Shown here one piece after another: positions 3,784 through 31,288 of a stretch of 36,728 nucleotides of DNA; the stretch's first letter is position 1; each line of letters starts with the position of its first letter. The DNA is taken from positions 1 to 36,728 of the forward strand of contig JAILGI010000056.1 of NCBI GenBank assembly GCA_024696885.1, written 5' to 3'. Origin of the DNA: Bacilli bacterium (lineage in GTDB: Bacteria > Bacillota_I > Bacilli_A > RFN20 > CAG-826). A model generated the notes under the pieces. That model worked only from the letters and a program-made list of their open reading frames with translations. It searched no databases and was not told where the DNA came from. Made by a program: the position numbers and the translations under genes.

Positions 3784-5169
3784 TTAAAGGTAATTTTTAA
3801 TTAAGAAATCCACTCTCGCAATAAGGGAATCACTAATCGCAGTGATTCTTTCTTTATCTAAGTATTTTGATTCAAATTGTAAAAATAATGGTTTTATTCT
3901 TTCTTTAAGTATATTTAGTTTATCTATACTTAACCATTTAAAGGATTTAACTAACTTTAATTGTTCTAATGGTTTTTCTTTAAATGGTTTAGAAACAATA
4001 TCCTTAAATGGTTTGATATCAAATGTGAGTTTATCAAAACCAAAAGAAGCACCACTATCAAAGATAGGGGACGGACCAATAAACTTTAATGTAATTGCGT
4101 CTCTAATAAAACCAAAATTGTTAAAGTGTCTATCTTCATTAGCGATGATGAAATCAAAGACGATTAATTTATCTAAATAATCTTCCACATTTTCAATGCC
4201 TAAATGATGAGCACATTTCACAAAATGGGAATAAGCACTGTCGTTATTATTCTTCTTTAACACTTTATTAATTTGATAGGCAGTAACTAAGTCTTGGCTA
4301 TTATTAATAAAATCTTCACATTTGGAATATGGATAATCTCCATCATCAAAGAATGAATACTGAACAGAATCTAAACCTAATATAGAGGCTATTTCAGAGG
4401 CTACTACTTCGTTGAATGGTTCTTGTCGATAAGGATTAGAGCCACCTTTCATCATTACTCTTTTATTGTTAATAATCTTCCAACGCTTTTTTAAATTACC
4501 TACAGATGTGCTATCAGGGGAAGAAAGATTCAATTCCTTCTTTCGTTTATTACCATTTAATAAAATGGTTCCTAAATCTTCTGAGAAGTCATTTTCAAAG
4601 AAGTTGATATCTTCCCAGGATATATTTTCATCTTTTGGTTTAATCCAATATTGATCAGATAAACTTAAGCCAAAACATTTTAATAACAATACTTTTGGAT
4701 CAGAGATATTAAGTTTATCTAAAGCATCTCTAATACCACTTCTAGTTAATGGGATACTTCTATCATTCCACCAGTCAAGAAGGGATTTTATATCTTTAAC
4801 ACCTATAGGAAGTAGTTCTTTTAAATAGACATCACCAATAGTGTGAATTCTTCCCGTTTCAAAAGAAATGGTTAAGTCTACGACCTGATTATTTAAGTGC
4901 ATCAATGAACAATATAAAAGTTCAGAAGATTGGAATCCTTTCTTTAGAAGTTTTAGTTGTTGCTCTAATAGTTGTCTTTTTTTAATTAAGATATCAAGGT
5001 CATATAATTCTTGTCCATTGACATATTTGCTATTCTTTTTACCGTTCTCTGACCATTGATGGTAATAGTAAATATTACCACCTATATTCTTAATGGATAT
5101 ATATCCCTTAGGTAGTTGTTTTATTCTTTCATTTAGCTCTTTAATCTTGTTAATTGTTTCTTGTTTCAT
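3784..5169 (-). CDS. HipA-like Ser/Thr kinase with N-terminal coiled segment
   Basis: A HipA-domain kinase of 461 residues. The C-terminal half shows the signature kinase residues: a glycine/serine-rich segment STSVGNLKKRW before the VMMKGGS strand, IIANEDRHFNNFG with the catalytic Asp at about 346, and PIFDSGASF with the metal-binding Asp at about 371. HipA kinases phosphorylate tRNA synthetases or other translation targets and cause growth arrest. The first 75 residues (LPKGYISIKNIGG, then a Lys/Leu-rich helix) are a short module unlike the usual HipA N-subdomain. No HipB partner with an HTH is adjacent. The start chosen is the ATG at 5169: the promoter predicts transcription beginning on that base. 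An upstream in-frame ATG at 5187 lies in front of the -10 box and would not be transcribed from this promoter. Confidence 0.75.
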   Translation of the reverse strand: MKQETINKIKELNERIKQLPKGYISIKNIGGNIYYYHQWSENGKKNSKYVNGQELYDLDILIKKRQLLEQQLKLLKKGFQSSELLYCSLMHLNNQVVDLTISFETGRIHTIGDVYLKELLPIGVKDIKSLLDWWNDRSIPLTRSGIRDALDKLNISDPKVLLLKCFGLSLSDQYWIKPKDENISWEDINFFENDFSEDLGTILLNGNKRKKELNLSSPDSTSVGNLKKRWKIINNKRVMMKGGSNPYRQEPFNEVVASEIASILGLDSVQYSFFDDGDYPYSKCEDFINNSQDLVTAYQINKVLKKNNNDSAYSHFVKCAHHLGIENVEDYLDKLIVFDFIIANEDRHFNNFGFIRDAITLKFIGPSPIFDSGASFGFDKLTFDIKPFKDIVSKPFKEKPLEQLKLVKSFKWLSIDKLNILKERIKPLFLQFESKYLDKERITAISDSLIARVDFLIKNYL

Positions 5170-5175
5170 GAGATC

Positions 5176-5220
5176 ATTATACCCCATCTTAACCCCTTTG
5201 TTAACCCCTTTTTTAACCCC
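5176..5220 (-). promoter_or_regulatory. Promoter of the HipA-like gene with three tandem GGGGTTAA boxes
   Basis: Read on the minus strand, -35 TTAACA (5204-5199), 17-bp spacer, -10 TATAAT (5181-5176). The expected start of transcription is at or next to the ATG at 5169, giving a leaderless mRNA. GGGGTTAA occurs three times with an exact 12-bp period (5220-5213, 5208-5201, 5196-5189), covering the region upstream of the -35, the -35 itself and the spacer. This is the layout of a repressor-controlled, self-limiting promoter. Confidence 0.7.
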
Positions 5221-5233
5221 CGTTTGATGGTAA

Positions 5234-5264
5234 TAAAAAGTAGATAATTTTTATTTATCTACTT
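5234..5264 (-). terminator. Terminator at the end of the polysaccharide operon
   Basis: On the minus strand AAGTAGATAA pairs perfectly with TTATCTACTT (ten pairs, seven-base loop) and is followed by TTTATT. The capF stop codon lies at the loop, so transcription ends right after the gene. Confidence 0.8.
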
Positions 5265-6348
5265 CTTCTCTATATGTATCGTGGGTATCAGGATTATATA
5301 TCTCACTGATCCACATTATCGTATGACTATTGATATCACCAATATTGGTTATTTGATGTGTGTAATAAGGGATGATATTGACTGGATGAGGATTGTTTCC
5401 ATCGACGATATCCTCTAAAACACTATTATCTTTAATGTTTCTTTGTTTGATATCGCACTTACCTATTACTGTATAAAAGATTTCTTTTTTATAAGTGTGA
5501 TAATGTCCACCTTTGGTGATTCCTGGATAAGCGACATTATCACTTATTTGTCCCCACTTCTTGGATTTATATAATTCTTCAAAGGAACCTCTAGCGTCCG
5601 TCGCATAATTATATGTATATCCTTCATCGGATAGATAATCTAAGAAGGTTTTGAATAACTTTAATTCGAATTCGTCATGGATAATGGGAAGGTGTCTATC
5701 ACTTTCCACTTCTTGTTTAAAGTAATAGAGTAAGTCAGCGAGTTTTCCTAAAGAACAATCATAGGTGGGATTAACATATAAGATATTTTTACTTCCTTTT
5801 TGATCACCTTTAATTACCTTAATGAATTCTTCGACGATATCTTCGACATAGTTATAGTGAACGACATAATCTCTATCTCTAATTTGAATAGGAAGATTAT
5901 GAGCGATGTTATAACAGAATGTCGCGGAAGCGGAATTATAATTAGGTCTACACCACTTACCAAAGGCGTTCGCTAAACGGTAGATATAAACTGGTAAACC
6001 AGAATTTAATAAATAATTTTCCCCCATCTTTTTGCTTTTACCATAGTCATTATCTAATATGGCTTGGATGGAACTAGACATGATGATGGGAACGTTTTTA
6101 TTTAATTGTTTAACATAATCGCATAACTTCTTAGTAAAATTTGTGTTTCCATCATAAAACTCTTCTGTAGTTAAGGGGCGATTAATACCGGCGAGATGGA
6201 CGATGAAATCACATTCCTTAATATAATTAAGCAAGTCTTCTTCTTTCTTGTCTATATCGTACTTTAAAGGGGTAAAACCATGCCTTTCTAGATGAAGGCA
6301 CATGTGTTTACCTATAAAGCCATTACTACCAGTGACTAATACTTTCAT
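5251..6348 (-). CDS. capF: UDP-2-acetamido-2,6-dideoxy-hexulose reductase, CapF/FnlB/WbjC type
   Basis: A bifunctional 365-residue enzyme of the UDP-L-FucNAc pathway. It has an N-terminal short-chain dehydrogenase domain with TGSNGFIG (residues 6-13) and a YGKSK catalytic Tyr-Lys pair, and a C-terminal cupin from about residue 250 with GGHYHTYKKE (His282, His284, Glu289) as metal ligands. In the known CapF the cupin epimerises C3 and the SDR domain reduces C4 of the CapE product. Length and domain order match CapF exactly. It is the last gene of the CapE-CapG-CapF sub-operon, four bases after CapG, and is followed by a strong terminator. No strong ribosome site is visible; translation may be coupled to CapG. 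Confidence 0.9.
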   Translation of the reverse strand: MKVLVTGSNGFIGKHMCLHLERHGFTPLKYDIDKKEEDLLNYIKECDFIVHLAGINRPLTTEEFYDGNTNFTKKLCDYVKQLNKNVPIIMSSSIQAILDNDYGKSKKMGENYLLNSGLPVYIYRLANAFGKWCRPNYNSASATFCYNIAHNLPIQIRDRDYVVHYNYVEDIVEEFIKVIKGDQKGSKNILYVNPTYDCSLGKLADLLYYFKQEVESDRHLPIIHDEFELKLFKTFLDYLSDEGYTYNYATDARGSFEELYKSKKWGQISDNVAYPGITKGGHYHTYKKEIFYTVIGKCDIKQRNIKDNSVLEDIVDGNNPHPVNIIPYYTHQITNIGDINSHTIMWISEIYNPDTHDTYREEVDK

Positions 6349-6352
6349 ATAT

Positions 6353-7501
6353 TTAGTCTTTTCTCCACACCATCTTGTTGACTACACCTACGTAGGATTG
6401 GATTAATTTCACAACTTTATCGGATACATTTGTATCGGTGTAGTCTCTAACTGGTTTACAGCCATTCTTGTTATTTACTGCGACCTCTACGGCTTGTAAG
6501 AGATTGATTTCATCAATACCAGCGAGGACAAAGCAAGCTTCATCTAAGGCTTCTGGTCTTTCGGTGCTTGTTCTAATGCACACCGCGGCGATAGGTTTAT
6601 TAATTGAAGTATAGAAACTTGATTCTTCGGGTAATGTTCCGGAATCGGATACGACACAGAAGGCATTCATTTGTAAGTTGTTATAATCATGGAATCCTAA
6701 TGGTTCATGCATCACAACTCGTTTATCTAATTTAAAACCTGTTTGTTCTAATTTCTTTTTGCTTCTTGGGTGGCAGCTATAGAGAATAGGCATATCATAT
6801 TTCTCAGCGAGTTTATTAATCGCATTGAATAAGCTATAGAAGTTCTTATCGGTATCGATATTCTCTTCTCTGTGTGCGCTTAAAAGGATGTATTTTCCTT
6901 TTTGTAAATGTAATTTAGTGAGGATATCACTATTATTGATATCTTCTAAGTTATTGAATAAGACTTCACTCATTGGTGAACCGGTGACATAGGTTCTTTC
7001 TTTAGGAAGACCACAGTCCGCTAGATAACGTCTAGCGTGTTCACTATAGGCTAAATTAACATCAGAGATGATATCAACGATTCTTCTATTGGTTTCTTCT
7101 GGTAAGCATTCATCTTTACATCTATTGCCCGCTTCCATGTGGAAGATTGGGATATGTAATCTTTTGGCGCCTATGACTGATAAGCAGCTATTGGTGTCCC
7201 CTAATACGAGGACAGCATCTGGACGTAGGTCCACCATCGCTTGATAGCTTTTAGCGATGATGTTGCCCATGGTTTCACCTAAGTCTTTACCAACAGCGTT
7301 TAAATAGATATCAGGATCTTTGATTTTTAAATCTTTGAAGAAGATACCATTAAGGGTGTAATCATAGTTTTGTCCAGTATGGACGAGTAAGGTATCAAAG
7401 TATTCGCGACATTTATTGATTACTGCGCTTAATCTAATGATTTCGGGTCTAGTACCGACGATAATCATTAATTTGATTTTTCCATTATTTTGAAAAGGCA
7501 T
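6353..7501 (-). CDS. capG: UDP-HexNAc 2-epimerase, CapG/FnlC type (final UDP-L-FucNAc step)
   Basis: A 382-residue non-hydrolysing UDP-GlcNAc 2-epimerase family enzyme. GTRPEIIRL near residue 17, LGDTNS near 101, HMEAGNRC near 122 and SDSGTLPEE near 285 are the family's substrate loops; the WecB paralogue in this window carries the matching motifs with different residues. Placed between CapE and CapF, it is the CapG/FnlC enzyme that converts UDP-N-acetyl-L-talosamine-type intermediate to UDP-L-FucNAc, rather than a ManNAc-forming WecB. A strong AAGGAGG ribosome site (complement of 7512-7518) overlaps the end of the CapE gene. A cytoplasmic enzyme with no membrane segment. Confidence 0.88.
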   Translation of the reverse strand: MPFQNNGKIKLMIIVGTRPEIIRLSAVINKCREYFDTLLVHTGQNYDYTLNGIFFKDLKIKDPDIYLNAVGKDLGETMGNIIAKSYQAMVDLRPDAVLVLGDTNSCLSVIGAKRLHIPIFHMEAGNRCKDECLPEETNRRIVDIISDVNLAYSEHARRYLADCGLPKERTYVTGSPMSEVLFNNLEDINNSDILTKLHLQKGKYILLSAHREENIDTDKNFYSLFNAINKLAEKYDMPILYSCHPRSKKKLEQTGFKLDKRVVMHEPLGFHDYNNLQMNAFCVVSDSGTLPEESSFYTSINKPIAAVCIRTSTERPEALDEACFVLAGIDEINLLQAVEVAVNNKNGCKPVRDYTDTNVSDKVVKLIQSYVGVVNKMVWRKD

Positions 7502-7516
7502 ATATTATAGTCCTCC

Positions 7517-8710
7517 TTATTCATGTTGTTTGACTGGACCACCGAATAATTCTAATTTCTTTAAGAGTTTCTTCATTCCTTCGACATCTAATCTGGCGGT
7601 GTTATGGGATGTATAGCTCTCACCTAAGTTTAACTTTTTATTTCCTTTAGAGAAATATTTATCATAGTTTAAGTCACGGTTATCCGCTTTCACGCAGAAG
7701 AAGTTACCCATATCGATGGATTTTAACATTTCTTCTTGTGTCACTAATGTTTCGTATAGCTTTTCACCGTGTCTTGTACCAATATAGCTAATACCGGTTT
7801 TAGAACCTGTTAATTCGATAACCGCTTTAGCGAGTGTATCAATTGTGGCTGCAGGTGCTTTTTGGACGAATAAGTCACCTTGTTCACCATGTTCAAAGGC
7901 ATATAAGACAAGATCCACAGCGTCATCTAATGTCATCATGAATCTAGTCATATCTGGATTAGTGATGGTAATGGGTTTACCTTCATGGATTTGATTTAAG
8001 AACAATGGGATAACAGAGCCTCTAGAGGCCATAACATTACCATATCTAGTTAAACATAAGACTGTATCATCTTTTAAGAGTTGTCTACTTCTAGCAATAA
8101 CGTTCTTTTCCATTAAGGCTTTAGAGATACCCATAGCGTTAATGGGGTAGGCGGCTTTATCTGTTGATAAGAAGATGGCTTTCTTAACGTGATTACGGAC
8201 ACAGGCGGTAATGACGTTATCACTGCCCATGACGTTAGTGCGGACCGCCTCCATGGGGTAAAATTCACAAGATGGGACTTGTTTTAACGCTGCAGCGGAA
8301 AAGACATAGTCAACACCTTTAAAGGCATCGATGATGCTATCGAGATTACGGACATCACCGATATAGAATTTTAATTTATCGTTGTTGTATGCTTTACGCA
8401 TATCATCTTGTTTCTTTTCATCTCTAGATAAGATTCTGATTTCTTTAATGTCTGTATTTAAGAATCTATCTACGACTGCATGACCAAATGATCCTGTACC
8501 ACCAGTAATTAATAAGACTTTATCTTTTAATATTGTGGTATCTTTACTAGCGTATTCATTTAATCTATCTTTAATACCTTGTAATTTGATTTGATCTGCT
8601 TTCTTTTCATCTACTTCATAAGAAACATATGTTCTTAAAGGCATACCCACGACTTGGGATGCTTCTTTTTGTGTTAATTTGCAATTTTTGCGTATTTCTT
8701 TAAGTGTCAT
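7517..8710 (-). CDS. capE: CapE/FnlA-type UDP-GlcNAc 4,6-dehydratase/5-epimerase with N-terminal HTH
   Basis: The first enzyme of UDP-L-FucNAc synthesis, 397 residues. The SDR domain starts with TGGTGSFG at 69-76 and has the FlaA1/CapE-type catalytic M194-x3-K198 in place of YxxxK, with SSTDK-like STDKA just before. The first 55 residues are an added helix-turn-helix of the XRE type: LKEIRKNCKLTQKEASQVVG, then LRTYVSYE. Usual CapE enzymes are about 340 residues and lack this. The HTH might let the enzyme bind its own promoter and adjust the pathway; that is inference. The gene has its own promoter and a ribosome site AAGAGGTG about six bases before ATG, and heads the capE-capG-capF group. Confidence 0.88.
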   Translation of the reverse strand: MTLKEIRKNCKLTQKEASQVVGMPLRTYVSYEVDEKKADQIKLQGIKDRLNEYASKDTTILKDKVLLITGGTGSFGHAVVDRFLNTDIKEIRILSRDEKKQDDMRKAYNNDKLKFYIGDVRNLDSIIDAFKGVDYVFSAAALKQVPSCEFYPMEAVRTNVMGSDNVITACVRNHVKKAIFLSTDKAAYPINAMGISKALMEKNVIARSRQLLKDDTVLCLTRYGNVMASRGSVIPLFLNQIHEGKPITITNPDMTRFMMTLDDAVDLVLYAFEHGEQGDLFVQKAPAATIDTLAKAVIELTGSKTGISYIGTRHGEKLYETLVTQEEMLKSIDMGNFFCVKADNRDLNYDKYFSKGNKKLNLGESYTSHNTARLDVEGMKKLLKKLELFGGPVKQHE

Positions 8711-9846: not shown

Positions 9847-10464
9847 TTAACTCGCTCCTTTTGATGAAAAGACAACACCAATAGCTTTAAATATGAGTTT
9901 TAGATCATACCATAAGCTTCTTTTCTTAAAATATTCCAATTCCAATTGCTGTCTTTTACCATCAGAAAACAACACTTCGCTTCTTCCGTTTACGCCCCAG
10001 TTAGAGATTAAACCAGGTCTAGCGGAAAGAAGAAGTTTCTGCTCATCAGCGGTGTAATTATCATCTAATTCCTTTTTTGTGATAGGTCTAGGACCAACCA
10101 CAGACATGGAACCAAATAAAATATTAAATAATTGTGGTAGTTCATCTAAAGATGTTTTTCTTAGGAATTTACCAACTTTAGTAATTCTTGGATCGTTAGT
10201 GATTTTTCTTTCTTTTTCCCAAGCTTCTATTTCTTCTGGAGTTAAGTACTTTTCTAATCTCTCTTCGGCGTCGATATACATGCTTCTAAACTTTAAAACC
10301 TTAATCGTCTTGCCTTTCTTGCCTACTCTTACATCCTTAAATAAAACAGGACCTTTCGAACTTAATTTAACAAGCAAGGCTAAAACAATTAGCAATAAAG
10401 ATAGAAGAATAATTGCTAAGAATGATGAGACTATATCAAATGTTCTTTTAATAAAAGCGTACAT
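9847..10464 (-). CDS. Initiating undecaprenyl-phosphate sugar phosphotransferase (PglC-like)
   Basis: A 205-residue bacterial sugar transferase (monotopic phosphoglycosyl transferase, PF02397 type). One N-terminal hydrophobic stretch (about residues 8-33) forms the re-entrant membrane helix. KFRSMYIDAEE, the Asp-Glu pair in SLDELPQLFNIL and the SVVGPRP loop are the conserved catalytic core. It transfers a sugar phosphate from a UDP-sugar to undecaprenyl phosphate, which starts each repeat unit. This is the short PglC/WcaJ-core form without the extra N-terminal membrane helices of WbaP. The sugar is not known; FucNAc-precursor or other HexNAc sugars would suit the locus. The stop is four bases from the next start, so it is co-transcribed with the epimerase. 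Confidence 0.9.
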   Translation of the reverse strand: MYAFIKRTFDIVSSFLAIILLSLLLIVLALLVKLSSKGPVLFKDVRVGKKGKTIKVLKFRSMYIDAEERLEKYLTPEEIEAWEKERKITNDPRITKVGKFLRKTSLDELPQLFNILFGSMSVVGPRPITKKELDDNYTADEQKLLLSARPGLISNWGVNGRSEVLFSDGKRQQLELEYFKKRSLWYDLKLIFKAIGVVFSSKGAS

Positions 10465-14008: not shown

Positions 14009-15166
14009 TTAATTATTTACTATTTCATCCATTTCTTTATAGAAATTCTTAATATCTAATTTTTCAACCGCTGTCTTTTTGGCATTTATTTTCATATCTC
14101 TAATTTCTTCAATTGTTTTAGATATGGCCAAGACTAATGCATCCTTAAAAGCATCTGAAGTATCACCATGAACTTCAATACAGTTGATTTCGTTTTTAAG
14201 ATATAAACCAAGATCACTAGTAAAATTAGTGACAGGAGGCACTCCATATTCTAAACTTTCAGAAATCTTGGTTGGGAATCCTGCTTTTGCGTATCTAGCT
14301 TCAAACGGTCTAAGTAAAAGGGAATAATCATATGATTTATACGTTTCGATGATTCTTGAAAATGGTAAACTTCCTTTAAATGATGAAAAGGTCAAGATTT
14401 TATTTTTAAGGTCTTTTGAGATTTTTTGTTTCAAAAGCCACTTATTATCAATGCCGATAACATCAACTTCGCATTTCGATAATAAAGCATCGGGTAATTT
14501 TGTAAAAGCAATAAGGATATCGCATAATAAATCCTTTTTTCTTGGGTTTCCACAATAAATAAATCTTCTCTTTTCACTATTTGCTATTGAAACATCTAAT
14601 TTGTTATCTTTGTTATTAATAACAAAGGGGATTGCAACCACTTTCATATTCATGTTAGCAAAATGGTTCTTTAGATAATTGCTTATTGCAATAACCTTGC
14701 CATCACTAGGTTTAATCTTTGTGTTAAAGAATATGTTTTTATGATATCCACTAGAAAATAATCCATTTAGCGGATATTCCGATGGGGAATAAAATTCAAC
14801 AGATGAATATATGATGTTTTGTGTCTTAAACGATTTGATTCTTTTTCTTAATGTTTTAAATAAATTGGGTTCAGAAAAAATAATATCTGAATCACCATAA
14901 TGTTGAATGCCATAGTTAACTATCTTTTTTTCCACAAATAAATGGTTCAAAATCTTTTGGATAAAATTTGGGTTTTTATATCGTTTAAGTGAAACCATTG
15001 ATACGCCATCGATGGATTCAACTTTTTTATAAGGTGTTCTACCCATTCCAATAAAAACCACTTCATAGCCTCTATCAATAAAGTATTTAGCAAAAATACA
15101 GTCTCTTTTTGAAGAGGCGTCGCCATCTGGATATCTTCTTTTGGTTAAAAATAACACTCTTTTCAT
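14009..15166 (-). CDS. Glycosyltransferase, GT4-like
   Basis: A 385-residue protein whose start KRVLFLTKRRYPDGDASSKR is the acceptor-side Rossmann strand with a glycine-poor loop, as in many GT4 enzymes. FIYCGNPRKKDLLCDILIAF and the donor-side segment AGFPTKISESLEYGVPPVTN keep the C-terminal Glu. A cytosolic, membrane-peripheral enzyme adding one sugar of the repeat unit is the expected role. The gene overlaps the heparinase-like gene upstream by ATGA and precedes the next glycosyltransferase by three bases. Confidence 0.78.
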   Translation of the reverse strand: MKRVLFLTKRRYPDGDASSKRDCIFAKYFIDRGYEVVFIGMGRTPYKKVESIDGVSMVSLKRYKNPNFIQKILNHLFVEKKIVNYGIQHYGDSDIIFSEPNLFKTLRKRIKSFKTQNIIYSSVEFYSPSEYPLNGLFSSGYHKNIFFNTKIKPSDGKVIAISNYLKNHFANMNMKVVAIPFVINNKDNKLDVSIANSEKRRFIYCGNPRKKDLLCDILIAFTKLPDALLSKCEVDVIGIDNKWLLKQKISKDLKNKILTFSSFKGSLPFSRIIETYKSYDYSLLLRPFEARYAKAGFPTKISESLEYGVPPVTNFTSDLGLYLKNEINCIEVHGDTSDAFKDALVLAISKTIEEIRDMKINAKKTAVEKLDIKNFYKEMDEIVNN

Positions 15167-19100: not shown

Positions 19101-21479
19101 TCATTTAATTACTTTATCAATAATTGATAAATATGTCGAAGATAATTTATCAAAATCAAAGTCTTTTGATGCTTTTTTTGCATTATTGCAATATTCAGAA
19201 TATTCCTGTTTATTCATCTTTTTGAACATTTCAACAGCTTCAGCTAAATTCTTAGGAGTGTATTCATCCAGTTCAATGCCACATTTGTATCTATTAATTA
19301 AGGAATACCCCATCTTAACTGTTGATATGATAGGTTTACCACTCGCCATATATTCAAATAATTTATTTGAACTATTACCTCGTGACCAGTTGTACATCGA
19401 ATTAGAATAAACCAAAATGTTCAAATCCATTTGACTTAAGAACGATGGAACAAACTTCTTATCAAGATAACCTGTAAATTTAACATTAGTGAGTTTCTTT
19501 TCTTCAACGAGTTTTTTCATATCTTCTAATAAAGATCCAGAACCCGCGATACAGAACACTATTGATTCATTGTTTTTTAACAATTCAGCGGCTTCAATGA
19601 TGAAATCAACCGAATTCATCGGTCTAATTGAACCAGCATAACCAACATAGAACTTTTTAGAACCTTTTTCTCTAATATCGTATTTGTTTTCTTTAATATT
19701 TTGATTCCATTCATCAAAATCAACACCATTATTTACGTAATAGCACTTTTCAAGATTAATCTTGCCACCTTGTCCTTTGTCCCACTTCATTTCCTTAATG
19801 TGGTCTACATCGCCTTCTTTTGTAAAAACGATTGCGTCTGAATGAATGTAAATATTTCTTTCCATTCTTGAAAGCATTTTACCAAATAAACTCTTTTCTT
19901 TGACTTTTCCAACTGTAAATAACTCTTCTGGCCAAAGGTCTCTAACTTCTGTGATATATGGAATATCATGTTTTTTCGCTATCTTATGAGCCGCCACACA
20001 CGTTAATAAGTGGGCGCTAGATCCAATTATTACTTTTGGTAATCCATATTTTAAGGCAACACCATCCCAAGAGCGGAGAATGGCAAAATAGAAGGAAATC
20101 ATATTAATGATTCTCTTAATTCCATTGCCTTTATATCTATATGTTTTAAGGAAGGCAAAAATAATATCATCATCAACGTTAACTTCAGTGAAGTGTCCTT
20201 TTTTAACTGCGACTTCTGTTCCTGTTGCGTGAAGTTGATTAGAAGCGAAAATAATGACTCTATATCCTTCTTTAGCAAATCGCTTCGCTAAATAATAGTG
20301 CCTTGGTAATGGGCCATTATCCGGAGTTGTTGCGTAGTGATTCATAATCCAAATAGTCTTTTTACCCTCAGGATAAGATGGTCTTTCATCCAAATGGTTT
20401 TCAATAGCCTTTTCCTTTCTTAACGCGCCAAGAATAGTTGTCATACAAGTGAAAAGACCAAAAGCAACTGGGAATACAAATGCACCACTATATGCGAACA
20501 AGAATTTAACGCCAAACAAAGTTGGTGTGATTTTTGAGAATAAGAATAATAATCCAAAGAATAACAACAACGATATGATTGGCAGTGAATAAAGTAAGAA
20601 TTTGTTTTCAAAGAAATATTTCACATAATCAGAAATAAATTGAATTAATAAAACAATAGCAATGATAAGCAAAACGATGCCAAATGACATGCAAAGAGGC
20701 AGTCTTTGATTAATGGTTGTGTACAATTTATACCTTTCTTGAATGGCCTTGCATGAGAATTTAGCCGTACCGCTATCAAATCCTTCAGTGTTGATCCATT
20801 TTTTAATTTCTCGTTCAATAACTGCACTTTTCTCGAAATATTTAGATATAGTTTTAAAGAAAGAACTGATTGTAATATCATTTAAGTCTTCTTGTGAAAC
20901 AACAGCAAAATAACCAAAAGTTCCCGCAAAAATACTACCGGTATTATTTCTTTCTCCGTTTATCGCACCGAAGCACATTCCGATAACTTCAAAAGATTTG
21001 GTTTTGTTACCAAGCGTAATTGTCATATTGTCGCCAGGGTTAAAACCGAGTTTTCGATATAAATCACTAGATAAAACGATATAACCACTCTTTAGTTTGT
21101 TCCATACATTCTCGCCGTAAATATGATTATATGAATAAGAGCTGTTGTTATAATAAGGAACATCAAAAACAGTAAGGTCCAATTCATTATATTTAGTTGT
21201 GACATATCTGGATGCTGAATACTTATATGGTTCATCTTTCGTGTTTTCGTAGCTTATGTTTGACCAAAAATCAGGATCAACATTGTCTTTATTTCTATTT
21301 ACGCAAACAATCAAATCAGAATCGCCACTATTGATAAGGTTGTCACCGCTTTTAGATATGAAAAATTGTTGATTGCCACCAAAAATAAACAGTGAGGAAA
21401 ACAAAGCAACAAAGAAGATGGTTGCTTGATATAAAACGTGTAAGAAGAAAGTTAGTATTTCTTTTTCTTTATTTTTCAT
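19101..21479 (-). CDS. Fusion of FtsX/MacB-like membrane and extracellular region with WbuB-like GT4
   Basis: A 792-residue protein with two parts. Residues 10-34 form TM1; 35-258 form an extracellular domain with the MacB/FtsX periplasmic-core wording YIVLSSDLYRKLGFNPGDN and a following EVIGMCFG strand; 262-285, 294-314 and 325-353 are three more membrane helices. This is the four-helix, large-loop layout of MacB/FtsX permeases, but no ABC ATPase is nearby. From about 374 (TIWIMNHYATTPDNGPLPRH) to the end is a GT4 enzyme of the WbuB type, with YVGYAGSIRPMN, FCIAGSGSLLEDM and GNSSNKLFEYMASGKPI (E-x7-E region). WbuB enzymes are linked to FucNAc transfer, matching CapE-F-G here. The GT faces the cytosol. 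The ATG overlaps the upstream gene by 11 bases. No frameshift is visible at the junction. Confidence 0.82.
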   Translation of the reverse strand: MKNKEKEILTFFLHVLYQATIFFVALFSSLFIFGGNQQFFISKSGDNLINSGDSDLIVCVNRNKDNVDPDFWSNISYENTKDEPYKYSASRYVTTKYNELDLTVFDVPYYNNSSYSYNHIYGENVWNKLKSGYIVLSSDLYRKLGFNPGDNMTITLGNKTKSFEVIGMCFGAINGERNNTGSIFAGTFGYFAVVSQEDLNDITISSFFKTISKYFEKSAVIEREIKKWINTEGFDSGTAKFSCKAIQERYKLYTTINQRLPLCMSFGIVLLIIAIVLLIQFISDYVKYFFENKFLLYSLPIISLLLFFGLLFLFSKITPTLFGVKFLFAYSGAFVFPVAFGLFTCMTTILGALRKEKAIENHLDERPSYPEGKKTIWIMNHYATTPDNGPLPRHYYLAKRFAKEGYRVIIFASNQLHATGTEVAVKKGHFTEVNVDDDIIFAFLKTYRYKGNGIKRIINMISFYFAILRSWDGVALKYGLPKVIIGSSAHLLTCVAAHKIAKKHDIPYITEVRDLWPEELFTVGKVKEKSLFGKMLSRMERNIYIHSDAIVFTKEGDVDHIKEMKWDKGQGGKINLEKCYYVNNGVDFDEWNQNIKENKYDIREKGSKKFYVGYAGSIRPMNSVDFIIEAAELLKNNESIVFCIAGSGSLLEDMKKLVEEKKLTNVKFTGYLDKKFVPSFLSQMDLNILVYSNSMYNWSRGNSSNKLFEYMASGKPIISTVKMGYSLINRYKCGIELDEYTPKNLAEAVEMFKKMNKQEYSEYCNNAKKASKDFDFDKLSSTYLSIIDKVIK

Positions 21480-24195: not shown

Positions 24196-24224
24196 ATTAT
24201 AATAGTTACTGGTTACTATGCAAA
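24196..24224. promoter_or_regulatory. Shared bidirectional -10 between the polymerase-flippase and Asp-box genes
   Basis: The palindrome ATTATAAT (24196-24203) reads TATAAT on both strands. Leftward: -35 TTTGCA (24224-24219), 17-bp spacer, -10 TATAAT (24201-24196), serving the long polysaccharide operon. Rightward: -10 TATAAT (24198-24203) with only weak -35 candidates, serving the gene at 24218, whose leader would be about eight bases. The leftward -35 overlaps the ATG of the rightward gene, so the two promoters should compete. Confidence 0.6.
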
Positions 24225-26065
24225 CAAAAAAGATTACAAGAGCAGAAAATTTCTTCTATAGAAGAGCGGGTAGAATTTACAAAAGAAAGAACCACTACTT
24301 TAATTATAACTTTTTAAGTTCGTCTGAAAAATACGATATCTATATGGATATCGGTGGCAAGAAAAAAATCGTTGCCGCTTTAAATGACGTCATATGTGTT
24401 CAAAAGAATCCTACAACAATTGAATTATATCCAAATTACAGAAATACACTTCTCAAATACACAATAAAATTGACGCCCAATAAATTCGAAGGTTTAATTA
24501 AAGGAAGTAAAATAGACTTATGTCTACTTCTCCCATATTGTAGGCAATGCAAAGAAGGAGAAATAATCGATTCTTGGAGACTAGTAATAATCACAAATAA
24601 ATGCCAAGTGTTCCATAACTTTCCAAATAGATCAAAAGACTTCAATTATGAAGGTGAAAGTCAGCCATTGGATTTAGTTCATTTCGAAGAAAGTGCAATA
24701 TGGGATATTCCAGGAAGAAAATACCCTTCTATGAACGAAAAATGCGATGCCAATGAATTCTTCTTCCCGGTTTTCGATAAAGAGGTTTACGAATATCATC
24801 CACGTATAAATGGAAAACATGAAACAAAATATGGCAACAAGGGTTTTCCAAAATATTTAAAAAACGCAGACGGTGATATTATTTCTAGATTTTATTTCCC
24901 AAAACGACAATCCGAAAGTAATCCATTTTTCTATTTAGATGGACTAGAAATCGATACCAAAATCACATTAGTTGGAACTTATAGATCAAATACCAACCAA
25001 CCAGCAAGAATAGTTGTTTTTGCCACTACTGATGGAGGTAGAAATTGGTTCGCTAAATATGAGTTTGGGGACTATGGTCAATATGATTTTAGACAAGGCA
25101 AAGAAAGCGATTGGGGATTAAATTTTGGAAATTCAATCAATATTACTAATATTGAATTTGATGAAAAAGATGTTAATTCTTTAGAAATTTTAAAGCGAGA
25201 ATTAACACTAGATTTCAAAACAAACAATTATCAATCTTTCTCAAATCCTATTAGTATCAAATCCATAGTTAAGGGGTCAACAGCGATAATCGAAACACAT
25301 GACCCACATGGTTTAACTAATGGAAACATTGTTTTGTTAAAAGAAGTGCATGGCGCTAGCAAATTATCATTTTTAACAAATAACAATGCAAGCGAATTTA
25401 GTCCAGGAAACGGTATTTTCTTTAAAGTTAAAGTCATTGATAATTATCGTTTTGAATTATATGAAAATGTTTCTAATACGAATAATGTTTTACCATGTCG
25501 TCATATTCATTTTATAGACAGAATAAGAGATGGTTGGACTATTGGAACAGGTGAAATATATCCAAATGGATGGTTGTTAATCATGCAAAGCTTGGAAGGA
25601 GACACATATTCCAATATCAAAATACGTGAACCTTTTAATGTTACACAATTAACTTTTGGCAAAGAAGCGACACAAAGAGGTATGGGTTTATATTTATTTG
25701 AAAGAGAAAAAGAAAACTATTTCATCTTTGCATCTGATCACGATTTGCTAAAAAGGGATTTTGAACTACCAAATGGAGATTCTATAACCAGAAATTCAAC
25801 AGGGGTTTTTGTTGGTAAAATTTCAAATATTGATGATTATAAAAAAATGTCACCAATTTACGAAACAAATGAACCTTGCCTATATTTCAAGTTAATCGAT
25901 GACACTTATATATTTGGCGGGCAAAGAGGAGAAATTGCATTCGGACACAATTATGGTGACAGATGGGAAAGTTCAAAAATCAGTAAACCCATTAAAAGGT
26001 TTAGAGGAAGAACTTATGACTTTTTAGTCTATGATTCGTGCCTTTTCATAAGAAAAAACAAGTAA
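24218..26065 (+). CDS. Intracellular Asp-box (sialidase-fold-like) protein with phage-tail-type insert
   Basis: A 615-residue protein not assigned to a named family. TTDGGRNWFA near residue 268 fits the Asp-box S/T-x-D-x-G-x-x-W of sialidase and BNR beta-propellers, and GHNYGDRWES near 573 is a weaker second copy. Residues about 345-420 include HDPHGLTNGN and a FKVKVIDNYRFELYEN end, which match the small E1_FCCH-like module common in phage tail and tail-fibre proteins. No signal peptide or membrane helix is present. It is the only rightward gene in the locus and shares a promoter with the polymerase-flippase fusion, so a role in glycan sensing, tailoring or export control is possible; none is proven. 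The N terminus is basic (TRAENFFYRRAGRIYKRK). No ribosome site precedes the ATG. Confidence 0.6.
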   Translation: MQTKKITRAENFFYRRAGRIYKRKNHYFNYNFLSSSEKYDIYMDIGGKKKIVAALNDVICVQKNPTTIELYPNYRNTLLKYTIKLTPNKFEGLIKGSKIDLCLLLPYCRQCKEGEIIDSWRLVIITNKCQVFHNFPNRSKDFNYEGESQPLDLVHFEESAIWDIPGRKYPSMNEKCDANEFFFPVFDKEVYEYHPRINGKHETKYGNKGFPKYLKNADGDIISRFYFPKRQSESNPFFYLDGLEIDTKITLVGTYRSNTNQPARIVVFATTDGGRNWFAKYEFGDYGQYDFRQGKESDWGLNFGNSINITNIEFDEKDVNSLEILKRELTLDFKTNNYQSFSNPISIKSIVKGSTAIIETHDPHGLTNGNIVLLKEVHGASKLSFLTNNNASEFSPGNGIFFKVKVIDNYRFELYENVSNTNNVLPCRHIHFIDRIRDGWTIGTGEIYPNGWLLIMQSLEGDTYSNIKIREPFNVTQLTFGKEATQRGMGLYLFEREKENYFIFASDHDLLKRDFELPNGDSITRNSTGVFVGKISNIDDYKKMSPIYETNEPCLYFKLIDDTYIFGGQRGEIAFGHNYGDRWESSKISKPIKRFRGRTYDFLVYDSCLFIRKNK

Positions 26066-28896: not shown

Positions 28897-29328
28897 TTAT
28901 TTATTTCGGATAAAATATTTACCTTTCTTGGCCTTCCAGTCAATTCTGTTGCCATCCTCGTCAGTTATGCCATAACCAAGGAGACTATTTTTTGAACAAA
29001 TATCGCACTTAACAACGGTATATGTTTTGCCGTCTATTGTGAATTGAGTATAGTTATCTGCTTTTACACGATTATGATTCCACCACATTGGTTCGTAATT
29101 ATTGTAAATATTCGAATCAGACTCGTTCTTAAAATCACTTTTTGGTCTAATATGATCAATTTCCCATCCATATGAATAATTCTTCCCGTCTCCACCCGGT
29201 CTTTTACGCATCGTTTCTGTATCGCCGTAATCGTTGCGGTACATCCAGGTTCCAAAACAATCGGTTTGCCACTCATTATTTTTGCCATAAATAGCATCCC
29301 ACAACGCCAATGCTTCTTCTTTTTCCAT
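28897..29328 (-). CDS. HNH endonuclease
   Basis: A 143-residue nuclease. The core is WEIDHIRPKSDFKNES, followed by YNNYEPMWWNHNRVKADN: a DH pair for the first HNH strand, the Asn of the loop and the NHNR helix with the third metal His. The C-terminal VKCDICSKN holds a CxxC pair, possibly half of a zinc site. HNH enzymes cut DNA and occur with ATPases in defence systems (for example PtuB in Septu). It follows the RloB gene by six bases with AAGG in the gap, so it belongs to the same operon as RloA and RloB. The size and the lack of other domains suggest an effector that works with the partner ATPase. Confidence 0.78.
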   Translation of the reverse strand: MEKEEALALWDAIYGKNNEWQTDCFGTWMYRNDYGDTETMRKRPGGDGKNYSYGWEIDHIRPKSDFKNESDSNIYNNYEPMWWNHNRVKADNYTQFTIDGKTYTVVKCDICSKNSLLGYGITDEDGNRIDWKAKKGKYFIRNK

Positions 29329-29334
29329 AGCCTT

Positions 29335-30018
29335 TTATTCCTTTCTTTTTGTTTTGTCATCGATATAAGCTAAAATGAACTCAACAAATTGATAAATACC
29401 ACTCGATGGATTGGGTTTAATATTAGAATCAACATCCTTGTTTTTCATTAGCCGAGTGGCCTTTCTTATATCCCCACCATATTTAGTCAAGAAACGATGC
29501 ATGTCTTCCATATTCTTTTCATACTTTTTTGGACTACCGTTTTTCTTAAGAAAGGCATTAATCTTTGTTATATATTGGCTGCGTTTAATAGGGGTTTCAA
29601 GATTTTCAAAGTAATGATAAATCCACACTTCAAAGCATTCATTTGACCAGCACGCTTTCCAATCAATATTACCATCAAGTTCATCTTGTTCTCTTATTAA
29701 ATCATATGCCTTATCAAAATCTTTATAATCATCCTTATCATAGAAAATCCATACATTAGTGATGATTTCTTGTTTCTTTTTTCGCTTTTCGACATCTTTA
29801 ATCGCAAATTCAACAAGATCAATAGTATGTTGGCTCTTATTTGTTTTCACAGGTATGATTTCAATATCTTCTTTTTTGACCTTAAGTACTTCAGAAACAA
29901 ACACTTTTAAATCTTCCACGTAAAGTGGTTCTGTTTTGGTCCCTTCCGCGTAGATAAGATGTCTGCCGAATGGAATCAAGAATGTAGGAATGTTTCTTCT
30001 TCCTTGAGGTCTATTCAT
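29335..30018 (-). CDS. RloB-like Toprim protein (AbiL/RloAB defence partner)
   Basis: A 227-residue RloB family protein. YAEGTKTEPLYVEDL near residue 26 supplies the Toprim-type Glu, FYDKDDYKDFDKAYDL near 93 the Asp-x-Asp pair, and NECFEVWIYHYFE near 127 the conserved family helix (SNPCFE-like, changed to SNECFE). RloB proteins pair with the RloA ATPase and their Toprim fold is expected to cut or nick nucleic acid. The ATG at 30018 overlaps the end of RloA (TGGTGTGATGAATAG), so translation is coupled; a GTG one codon earlier is possible. A cytoplasmic protein. Confidence 0.8.
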   Translation of the reverse strand: MNRPQGRRNIPTFLIPFGRHLIYAEGTKTEPLYVEDLKVFVSEVLKVKKEDIEIIPVKTNKSQHTIDLVEFAIKDVEKRKKKQEIITNVWIFYDKDDYKDFDKAYDLIREQDELDGNIDWKACWSNECFEVWIYHYFENLETPIKRSQYITKINAFLKKNGSPKKYEKNMEDMHRFLTKYGGDIRKATRLMKNKDVDSNIKPNPSSGIYQFVEFILAYIDDKTKRKE

Positions 30019-31288
30019 CACACCAATTTAATCCTTTCTTGATAAATGGATCCGCGCCAAAGCGACCTTCTAAATATTGCTTGCTATATACGGCATCTTT
30101 TCTAATCATTTCACCCTTATAATTGACAATATTTGAAAGTGGAACATATTGCGTGGAATAATCATCATCTCTATAAGCAAACCAAATTTCATCTCTTCTA
30201 AAAAGTTTGTTGTTCATGTTGATAATATCATGAGAATTGAAGATTAACTGTCTGGACTCATTCTCTTTTGAAGCAAATAATTCAATAATTGCTCTTAAAA
30301 GTTTTGGATGGAGATGGGCATCGAAATCATCAGCAATACAAACACTTTCTTTTGGAGAAGTTAATATATCAAAGATTATATTAACTGCCTTAATTGTGCC
30401 ACTAGATTCATTCGTAAGAGGCATAGACACCAACTTGCCATCTTTGTTTTTGCGTTGGATATATAAGTAGTAGAAACCTGGATCTTTTTCCTCGAAAGAA
30501 AGACCTTCAATTCTAATATCTAACGCATTGAGCATTTGTTTGCTTTTATTTAAACAAGGTTTTAACATCTCGACAGCATCTTTTAGATAATTAAATGTTC
30601 TTAATTCTCTTCTTACCCAAACATAAGATCCTATCTCTGTGTAAAAAATGAAAATGGGTGTCGCGTCAGCATTTGTTTGGTCTTGAACAAACGAATCATT
30701 GAAGTATTTTAAAAATGTATAGTTCTTTGAAAGCGACCTGTTGTTTTTGATTAAATCAATATCGCTCAATAATTCGGATTCAACAATTCCACTGTTATTT
30801 CTTTTAAACAATGTTAAAAACTCTAAGTCTTCTAATTTGCGATAGACCATTTCTTCTTCTAAGATTTCAGCATCTACCACCCAAGCAAGTTGTCCAGCAA
30901 AAGGATTAGCAACGGTTTGTTGCATTTTATTTAGATTTAATGTCAAAGAGTAGCCGATTTCGTAGCCGCCTCTAACAATATAAAGGGTAAAAACGGTATT
31001 TTTATTATCTAAATAAATATTTGGAAAATAGTTCTCATTTTTAATTGAATCGTTAAAGAGTGAATTTTGTTTAATAATTACCGCAAAAGCATTGAGTGCC
31101 TTTAAAAGATTCGATTTACCACCACCATTAGGACCATAGATAGAAGTCACCTTAAGTAATCTTTCACCGCTAACTTCAATCACGTGTTCTGGATATTCAG
31201 ACACAACTGTTTTTGGGCAAGCTTCCATAGTAAAGACCTGCTCTTTTTGAATTGATTTGAAATTAGATACTCTAAATTCTTTAAGCAT
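30011..31288 (-). CDS. RloA-like AAA15 family ATPase (AbiL/RloAB defence)
   Basis: A 425-residue ATPase of the AAA15/OLD-like group. FRVSNFKSI near residue 5 and GPNGGGKSNLLKAL near 52 (Walker A) open the protein; SSGTIKAVNII is the ABC-type signature and VCIADDFDAHLHPKLLRAII the Walker B/D-loop, with Asp where most relatives have Glu. IFNSHDIINM gives the switch His. RloA works with RloB in phage defence (AbiL). Its promoter is a strong regulated one (see next entry). GGAG lies seven bases before the ATG. The three genes RloA, RloB and HNH form one minus-strand operon with overlaps or gaps of under seven bases. Confidence 0.85.
   Translation of the reverse strand: MLKEFRVSNFKSIQKEQVFTMEACPKTVVSEYPEHVIEVSGERLLKVTSIYGPNGGGKSNLLKALNAFAVIIKQNSLFNDSIKNENYFPNIYLDNKNTVFTLYIVRGGYEIGYSLTLNLNKMQQTVANPFAGQLAWVVDAEILEEEMVYRKLEDLEFLTLFKRNNSGIVESELLSDIDLIKNNRSLSKNYTFLKYFNDSFVQDQTNADATPIFIFYTEIGSYVWVRRELRTFNYLKDAVEMLKPCLNKSKQMLNALDIRIEGLSFEEKDPGFYYLYIQRKNKDGKLVSMPLTNESSGTIKAVNIIFDILTSPKESVCIADDFDAHLHPKLLRAIIELFASKENESRQLIFNSHDIINMNNKLFRRDEIWFAYRDDDYSTQYVPLSNIVNYKGEMIRKDAVYSKQYLEGRFGADPFIKKGLNWCDE

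Follow-up and report, generated by a model that had tools for sequence, protein, structure and literature searches.

The N-terminal membrane module of a protein encoded at 19101-21479(-) in the window (the whole 36.7-kb contig analysed, 32% GC, from a 1.08-Mb draft genome made up of 97 contigs) has as its constant genetic partner not the glycosyltransferase to which it is fused, but a neighbouring gene coding for a Wzy-Wzx fusion, a link that the sequence-only reading had missed. We propose, with a probability of roughly 0.6, that this module serves a Wzx/Wzy system as an ATPase-uncoupled subunit of FtsX fold, which would recruit glycosyltransferases on the inside and contact the polymer or the polymerase on the outside. 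What is new here is that the module is tied to Wzy-Wzx, that it stands alone in most relatives, and that it has recurrently been fused to GT4 enzymes.

The 792-aa protein is encoded in a single continuous frame from an ATG. Hydropathy and Pfam confirm the architecture first described from the sequence, i.e. four membrane helices with a large external loop between the first two, followed by a complete GT4. The helices (~15-33, 261-279, 295-313, and 335-353) all lie within residues 1-361, and TM1 is followed by an external domain of ~225 aa that includes LSSDLYRKLGFNPGD (residues 136-150). The C-terminal ~420 residues (~373-792) form a complete two-domain GT4 (Pfam Glycos_transf_1, E 9e-19) that shares 68% identity with a standalone GT4 of G004, a genome from the same family.

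Directly upstream lies the Wzy-Wzx gene (Table 1), which at its 3' end shares 11 nt with the start of the ORF. We searched with the Wzy-Wzx protein, then screened 273 genomes of the order with a Wzy-Wzx profile (distribution beyond the order being sampled in part), and found the fused gene in 17 genomes, all belonging to one family. A 4-TM protein, in which a large external domain separates TM1 from three further helices, adjoins Wzy-Wzx in 17/17 loci, although, given the near-duplicate pairs L076/L077 and L080/L081 and two more that are close, these represent closer to 13-15 independent loci. The two reading frames overlap by 4-20 nt in the 15 loci measured; in L076 and L077 the 4-TM member is located upstream of Wzy-Wzx, and an uncertain start leaves the extent of the overlap imprecise. 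Most pairs of 4-TM members are very divergent and some have no BLAST link, yet hhalign indicates that the window pair (window and G004) is homologous to the other 15 members (E 8.8e-12).

Table 1. Coordinates and supporting information for the main features of the window
Feature	Coordinates	Strand	Details
CapF/CapG/CapE-like genes	5251..8710	-	Family matches
Probable initiating sugar-phosphate transferase	9847..10464	-	Translation read by eye; BLAST homologues in L047, L072, L076-L079
GT4 of a subfamily present in most related loci	14009..15166	-	L046 and L071 carry this subfamily as a fusion to the FtsX-like module
GT4 (WbuB/WcaI-like) domain, residues 373-792, complete	19101..20363	-	Pfam Glycos_transf_1
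Module of predicted FtsX/LolC fold (residues 1-372)	20364..21479	-	TM1 ~15-33, external PCD-like ~34-260, TM2-4 ~261-353, short linker
Wzy-Wzx fusion, 900 aa	21469..24171	-	Wzy_C at 229-374, Polysacc_synt at 460-741

A profile of the 4-TM family retrieved no convincing member away from the Wzy-Wzx loci in 147 genomes, its weak matches elsewhere being other proteins. We could not find any relatives in viral contigs, plasmids or phages, and a scan of genome contigs returned the G004 record alone. Three more distant Wzx matches, from other families of the class, have a separate Wzy and no 4-TM neighbour. The adjacency in the 17 loci shows a functional linkage of the 4-TM protein with Wzy-Wzx, as distinct from contact. 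A phrase search of the open-licence literature retrieved nothing on FtsX-like proteins together with Wzx/Wzy, nor on a 'Wzx-Wzy fusion'.

Two other neighbours of Wzy-Wzx deserve mention. A 566-aa protein (L076 5488-7188 (-), L077 9916-11616 (+)) overlaps the Wzy-Wzx 3' end by 14 nt. It was first counted as a family member and then rejected, as it reads by eye as a series of Ig-like repeats with a VanZ-like membrane part at the end; the true 4-TM member is the gene on the opposite side of Wzy-Wzx. A 615-aa protein is a divergent neighbour of Wzy-Wzx in both the window (24218-26065 (+)) and L006 (4536-6476 (-)), has no clear Pfam or NCBIfam match, and is 60% identical between the window and G004.

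The N-terminal module is predicted to adopt the FtsX/LolC/MacB fold, an assignment that relies on a structural model; similarity to FtsX at the sequence level is weak (MacB_PCD E 0.029 for the window protein). An AF2 model from two sequences was poor (pLDDT 44.1). That obtained from the alignment of all 17 members, which is noisy with sequences 11-37% identical, reached a pTM of 0.63 and a mean pLDDT of 66.6, with residues ~91-210 mostly at pLDDT 76-93; TM3-TM4 are below 50, and the membrane part is based on hydropathy and partial alignments. Foldseek ranks MacB, LolC/E, YbbP, and a pneumococcal MacB-like transporter at the top of 39 matches at E <= 0.001, with E 4.3e-8 to 5xu1_M and to MacB 5lil_A. 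VIA gives Z 12.2 to the LolC periplasmic domain (172 residues, 4.8 A) and, for full LolC, Z 11.3 (257 residues), where unrelated folds start at ~7.8. These comparisons support the FtsX/MacB fold that the sequence-only reading had put forward.

Concerning sequence searches, the window and G004 members have no match to PF02687 at E <= 1, nor at E 10, and this family is not among the 25 listed for the 17 members, while bona fide FtsX permeases elsewhere in the same two genomes do match it. In PDB, Pfam, and NCBIfam, sequence searches yielded weak or chance matches, the best being lolCE for one member (E 0.0016). Comparison by hhalign of the module with FtsX permeases of the same genomes gave a probability of 30% and E 5.7e-4 over the GD-I-I/F-I-G hairpin, against E 0.096 for an unrelated control pair.

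The absence of a nearby ABC ATPase, remarked on at the outset, is borne out in all 17 loci: none of the 224 ORFs (120 aa or longer) from the window and the 16 related loci carries an ABC signature, whereas the signature is seen in an ATPase encoded next to a genuine FtsX permease of the same genome. Moreover, the FtsX coupling motif between TM2 and TM3, searched with one regular expression, is present in 0/17 members versus 8/9 controls (ORFs with an FtsX domain, drawn from the genome of the window and from two relatives), and the hydropathy-based TM2-TM3 gap has a median of 17 residues versus 38 in the FtsX controls, both measures being simple enough to miss cases. As the family is devoid of the ATPase-coupling motif, the earlier suggestion that the protein does something other than pump gains support, and the module is probably not a pump. 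A true FtsX-type permease might still be energised in trans by a MacB/LolD-like ATPase and extrude polymer, lipid-linked intermediates or lipoproteins; this would agree with the LolC/MacB fold and topology, and the genome does contain FtsX permeases, at least one of them beside an ABC ATPase. However, the missing motif, the short TM2-TM3 loop, the lack of PF02687 matches, and the absence of an ATPase gene from every locus make such a pump distinctly unlikely.

In G004 the cluster is syntenic with that of the window (48-90% identity for most genes, 36% for the module), and a 392-aa module and the GT4 are separate genes that overlap in different frames, the GT4 starting with a good Shine-Dalgarno and ATG (AGGAGG...ATG). 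At the corresponding junction of the window both signals are missing, and an in-frame TTG ahead of the GT4 is a possible internal start. Because the GT4 start signals are absent, the frame is open throughout, and the N-terminal family is joined to GT4s in five other genomes, the concern raised beforehand that the module is a mis-joined neighbouring gene is not supported. In a draft genome one might suspect that two overlapping genes were joined artificially by an assembly or frameshift error, the more so as G004 keeps both genes apart; the lost start codon and Shine-Dalgarno and the five further fusions of the same kind render this extremely improbable.

The 4-TM protein is standalone in 11 of the 17 loci and carries a GT4 at its C-terminus in the remaining six (window, L046, L071, L047, L072, and L049). 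Among 24 GT4s placed in a tree, the fused state needs at least four changes (losses could be among them), and a single origin is recovered in 0/200 bootstrap trees, L049 sitting on a long branch with unsure placement. The module would have acquired a GT4 independently on about four occasions. The GT4 subfamily represented by 14009-15166 also often adjoins the module in related loci. Since the module is encoded beside Wzy-Wzx throughout and GT4 fusions are recurrent, the idea of a docking of the enzyme onto the export machinery is favoured, albeit indirectly, and the repeated fusion to sugar-building enzymes suggests a physical assembly line.

Two other roles can be envisaged. The module might merely anchor glycosyltransferases to the membrane, its external domain having no role, which would suit the fusion of several different GT4 lineages. 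This is very improbable considering that a PCD-like hairpin is recognisable across a very divergent family, standalone members included, and that the neighbour is Wzy-Wzx rather than one glycosyltransferase. Alternatively, the external domain may be a sensor relaying the state of the polymer or the envelope across the membrane to the glycosyltransferase, by a MacB-like mechanotransmission without ATP. An external domain and a cytoplasmic GT4 in one chain do make a two-sided architecture, and fusion to enzymes recurs, but the majority of members have no fused enzyme, and we regard a sensor as unlikely.

We favour a scenario in which a membrane protein of the FtsX/LolC/MacB fold would have lost ATPase coupling and joined a complex for Wzx/Wzy-type glycan assembly as an accessory subunit. 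On the outer side, it would probably touch the nascent polymer or the Wzy polymerase by means of its external domain, possibly filling the co-polymerase job of Wzz/CpsC that is seemingly missing in most of these genomes. Its cytoplasmic face would recruit glycosyltransferases, a recruitment that may have become permanent through gene fusion in some lineages. In the window, the recruited enzyme would be the WbuB-like GT4, probably adding an L-FucNAc-type sugar.

The cluster surrounding the ORF also encodes nucleotide-sugar genes and four more GT4 or pyruvyl-transferase genes. We take the CapF/CapG/CapE-like genes to represent the UDP-L-FucNAc pathway, and it is because of these genes and of the WbuB-like similarity that the donor of the GT4 is probably an L-FucNAc-type sugar. 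The CapE-like enzyme (Polysacc_synt_2, window 7517-8710 (-)) bears an HTH_3 domain (residues 3-46) fused to its N-terminus, and the same fusion is present in L076 (2788-3993), L077 (11887-13092), L080 (14907-16100), and L081 (12828-14021). A HipA-like protein (HipA_C E 2.8e-6) is encoded at the edge of the glycan cluster (3784-5187 (-)), and an AAA_21 ATPase, a RloB-like protein, and a small adjacent ORF (28897-31288 (-)) resemble a defence island.

Family-model searches identified no LCP in 17 genomes and no PBP transpeptidase above cut-off in 20 genomes, several genomes being 74-88% complete, and the host group appears to consist of bacteria without a cell wall. Wzz is above cut-off in 2/17 genomes, on other contigs, as counted with PF02706, outside which Wzz-like proteins could exist; this family has no match at the 17 Wzy-Wzx loci at E <= 0.1. 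A WzyE-WzzE complex has been reported (PMC10030265). It is tempting to go further and to speculate, at somewhat less than even odds, that in these apparently wall-less Bacilli the ATPase-free FtsX-fold protein is an obligate third component of the Wzy-Wzx machine, replacing Wzz/CpsC and providing an enzyme-docking platform.

If true, this would represent a new architecture of the Wzx/Wzy pathway, and would show that an ABC-permease fold can be reused without its motor as a glycan-assembly subunit. It would also offer a system in which the physical tethering of glycosyltransferases to the Wzx/Wzy machinery could be tested directly, and bear on how Wzy-type surface glycans are made in bacteria where no LCP (wall-attachment) and few Wzz (length-control) genes are found.

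With respect to known systems, the module has in common with LolC/LolE, MacB, and other FtsX-type permeases the arrangement TM1, periplasmic-core-like domain, TM2-4 (TM3-TM4 being modelled at low confidence), but differs from them in having no coupling motif, a short TM2-TM3 loop, and no ATPase gene nearby, and in being linked to Wzy-Wzx and sometimes fused to a GT4. Like the Wzz/CpsC co-polymerases (PCP), the 4-TM protein sits in the membrane, has an external domain, and is encoded beside Wzy; however, these have two helices, whereas it has four, a predicted LolC/MacB-like fold, and no PF02706 match. The C-terminal 420 residues of the window protein form a complete GT4 as in WbuB/WcaI-type enzymes, but are borne on a membrane module, the G004 counterpart being a separate gene. 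Finally, the window cluster shares with Wzx/Wzy-dependent capsule systems flippase and polymerase domains, nucleotide-sugar genes, and several GT4s, and departs from them in that the searches identified no LCP gene in the 17 genomes, Wzy and Wzx form one chain, and an FtsX-like subunit is present.
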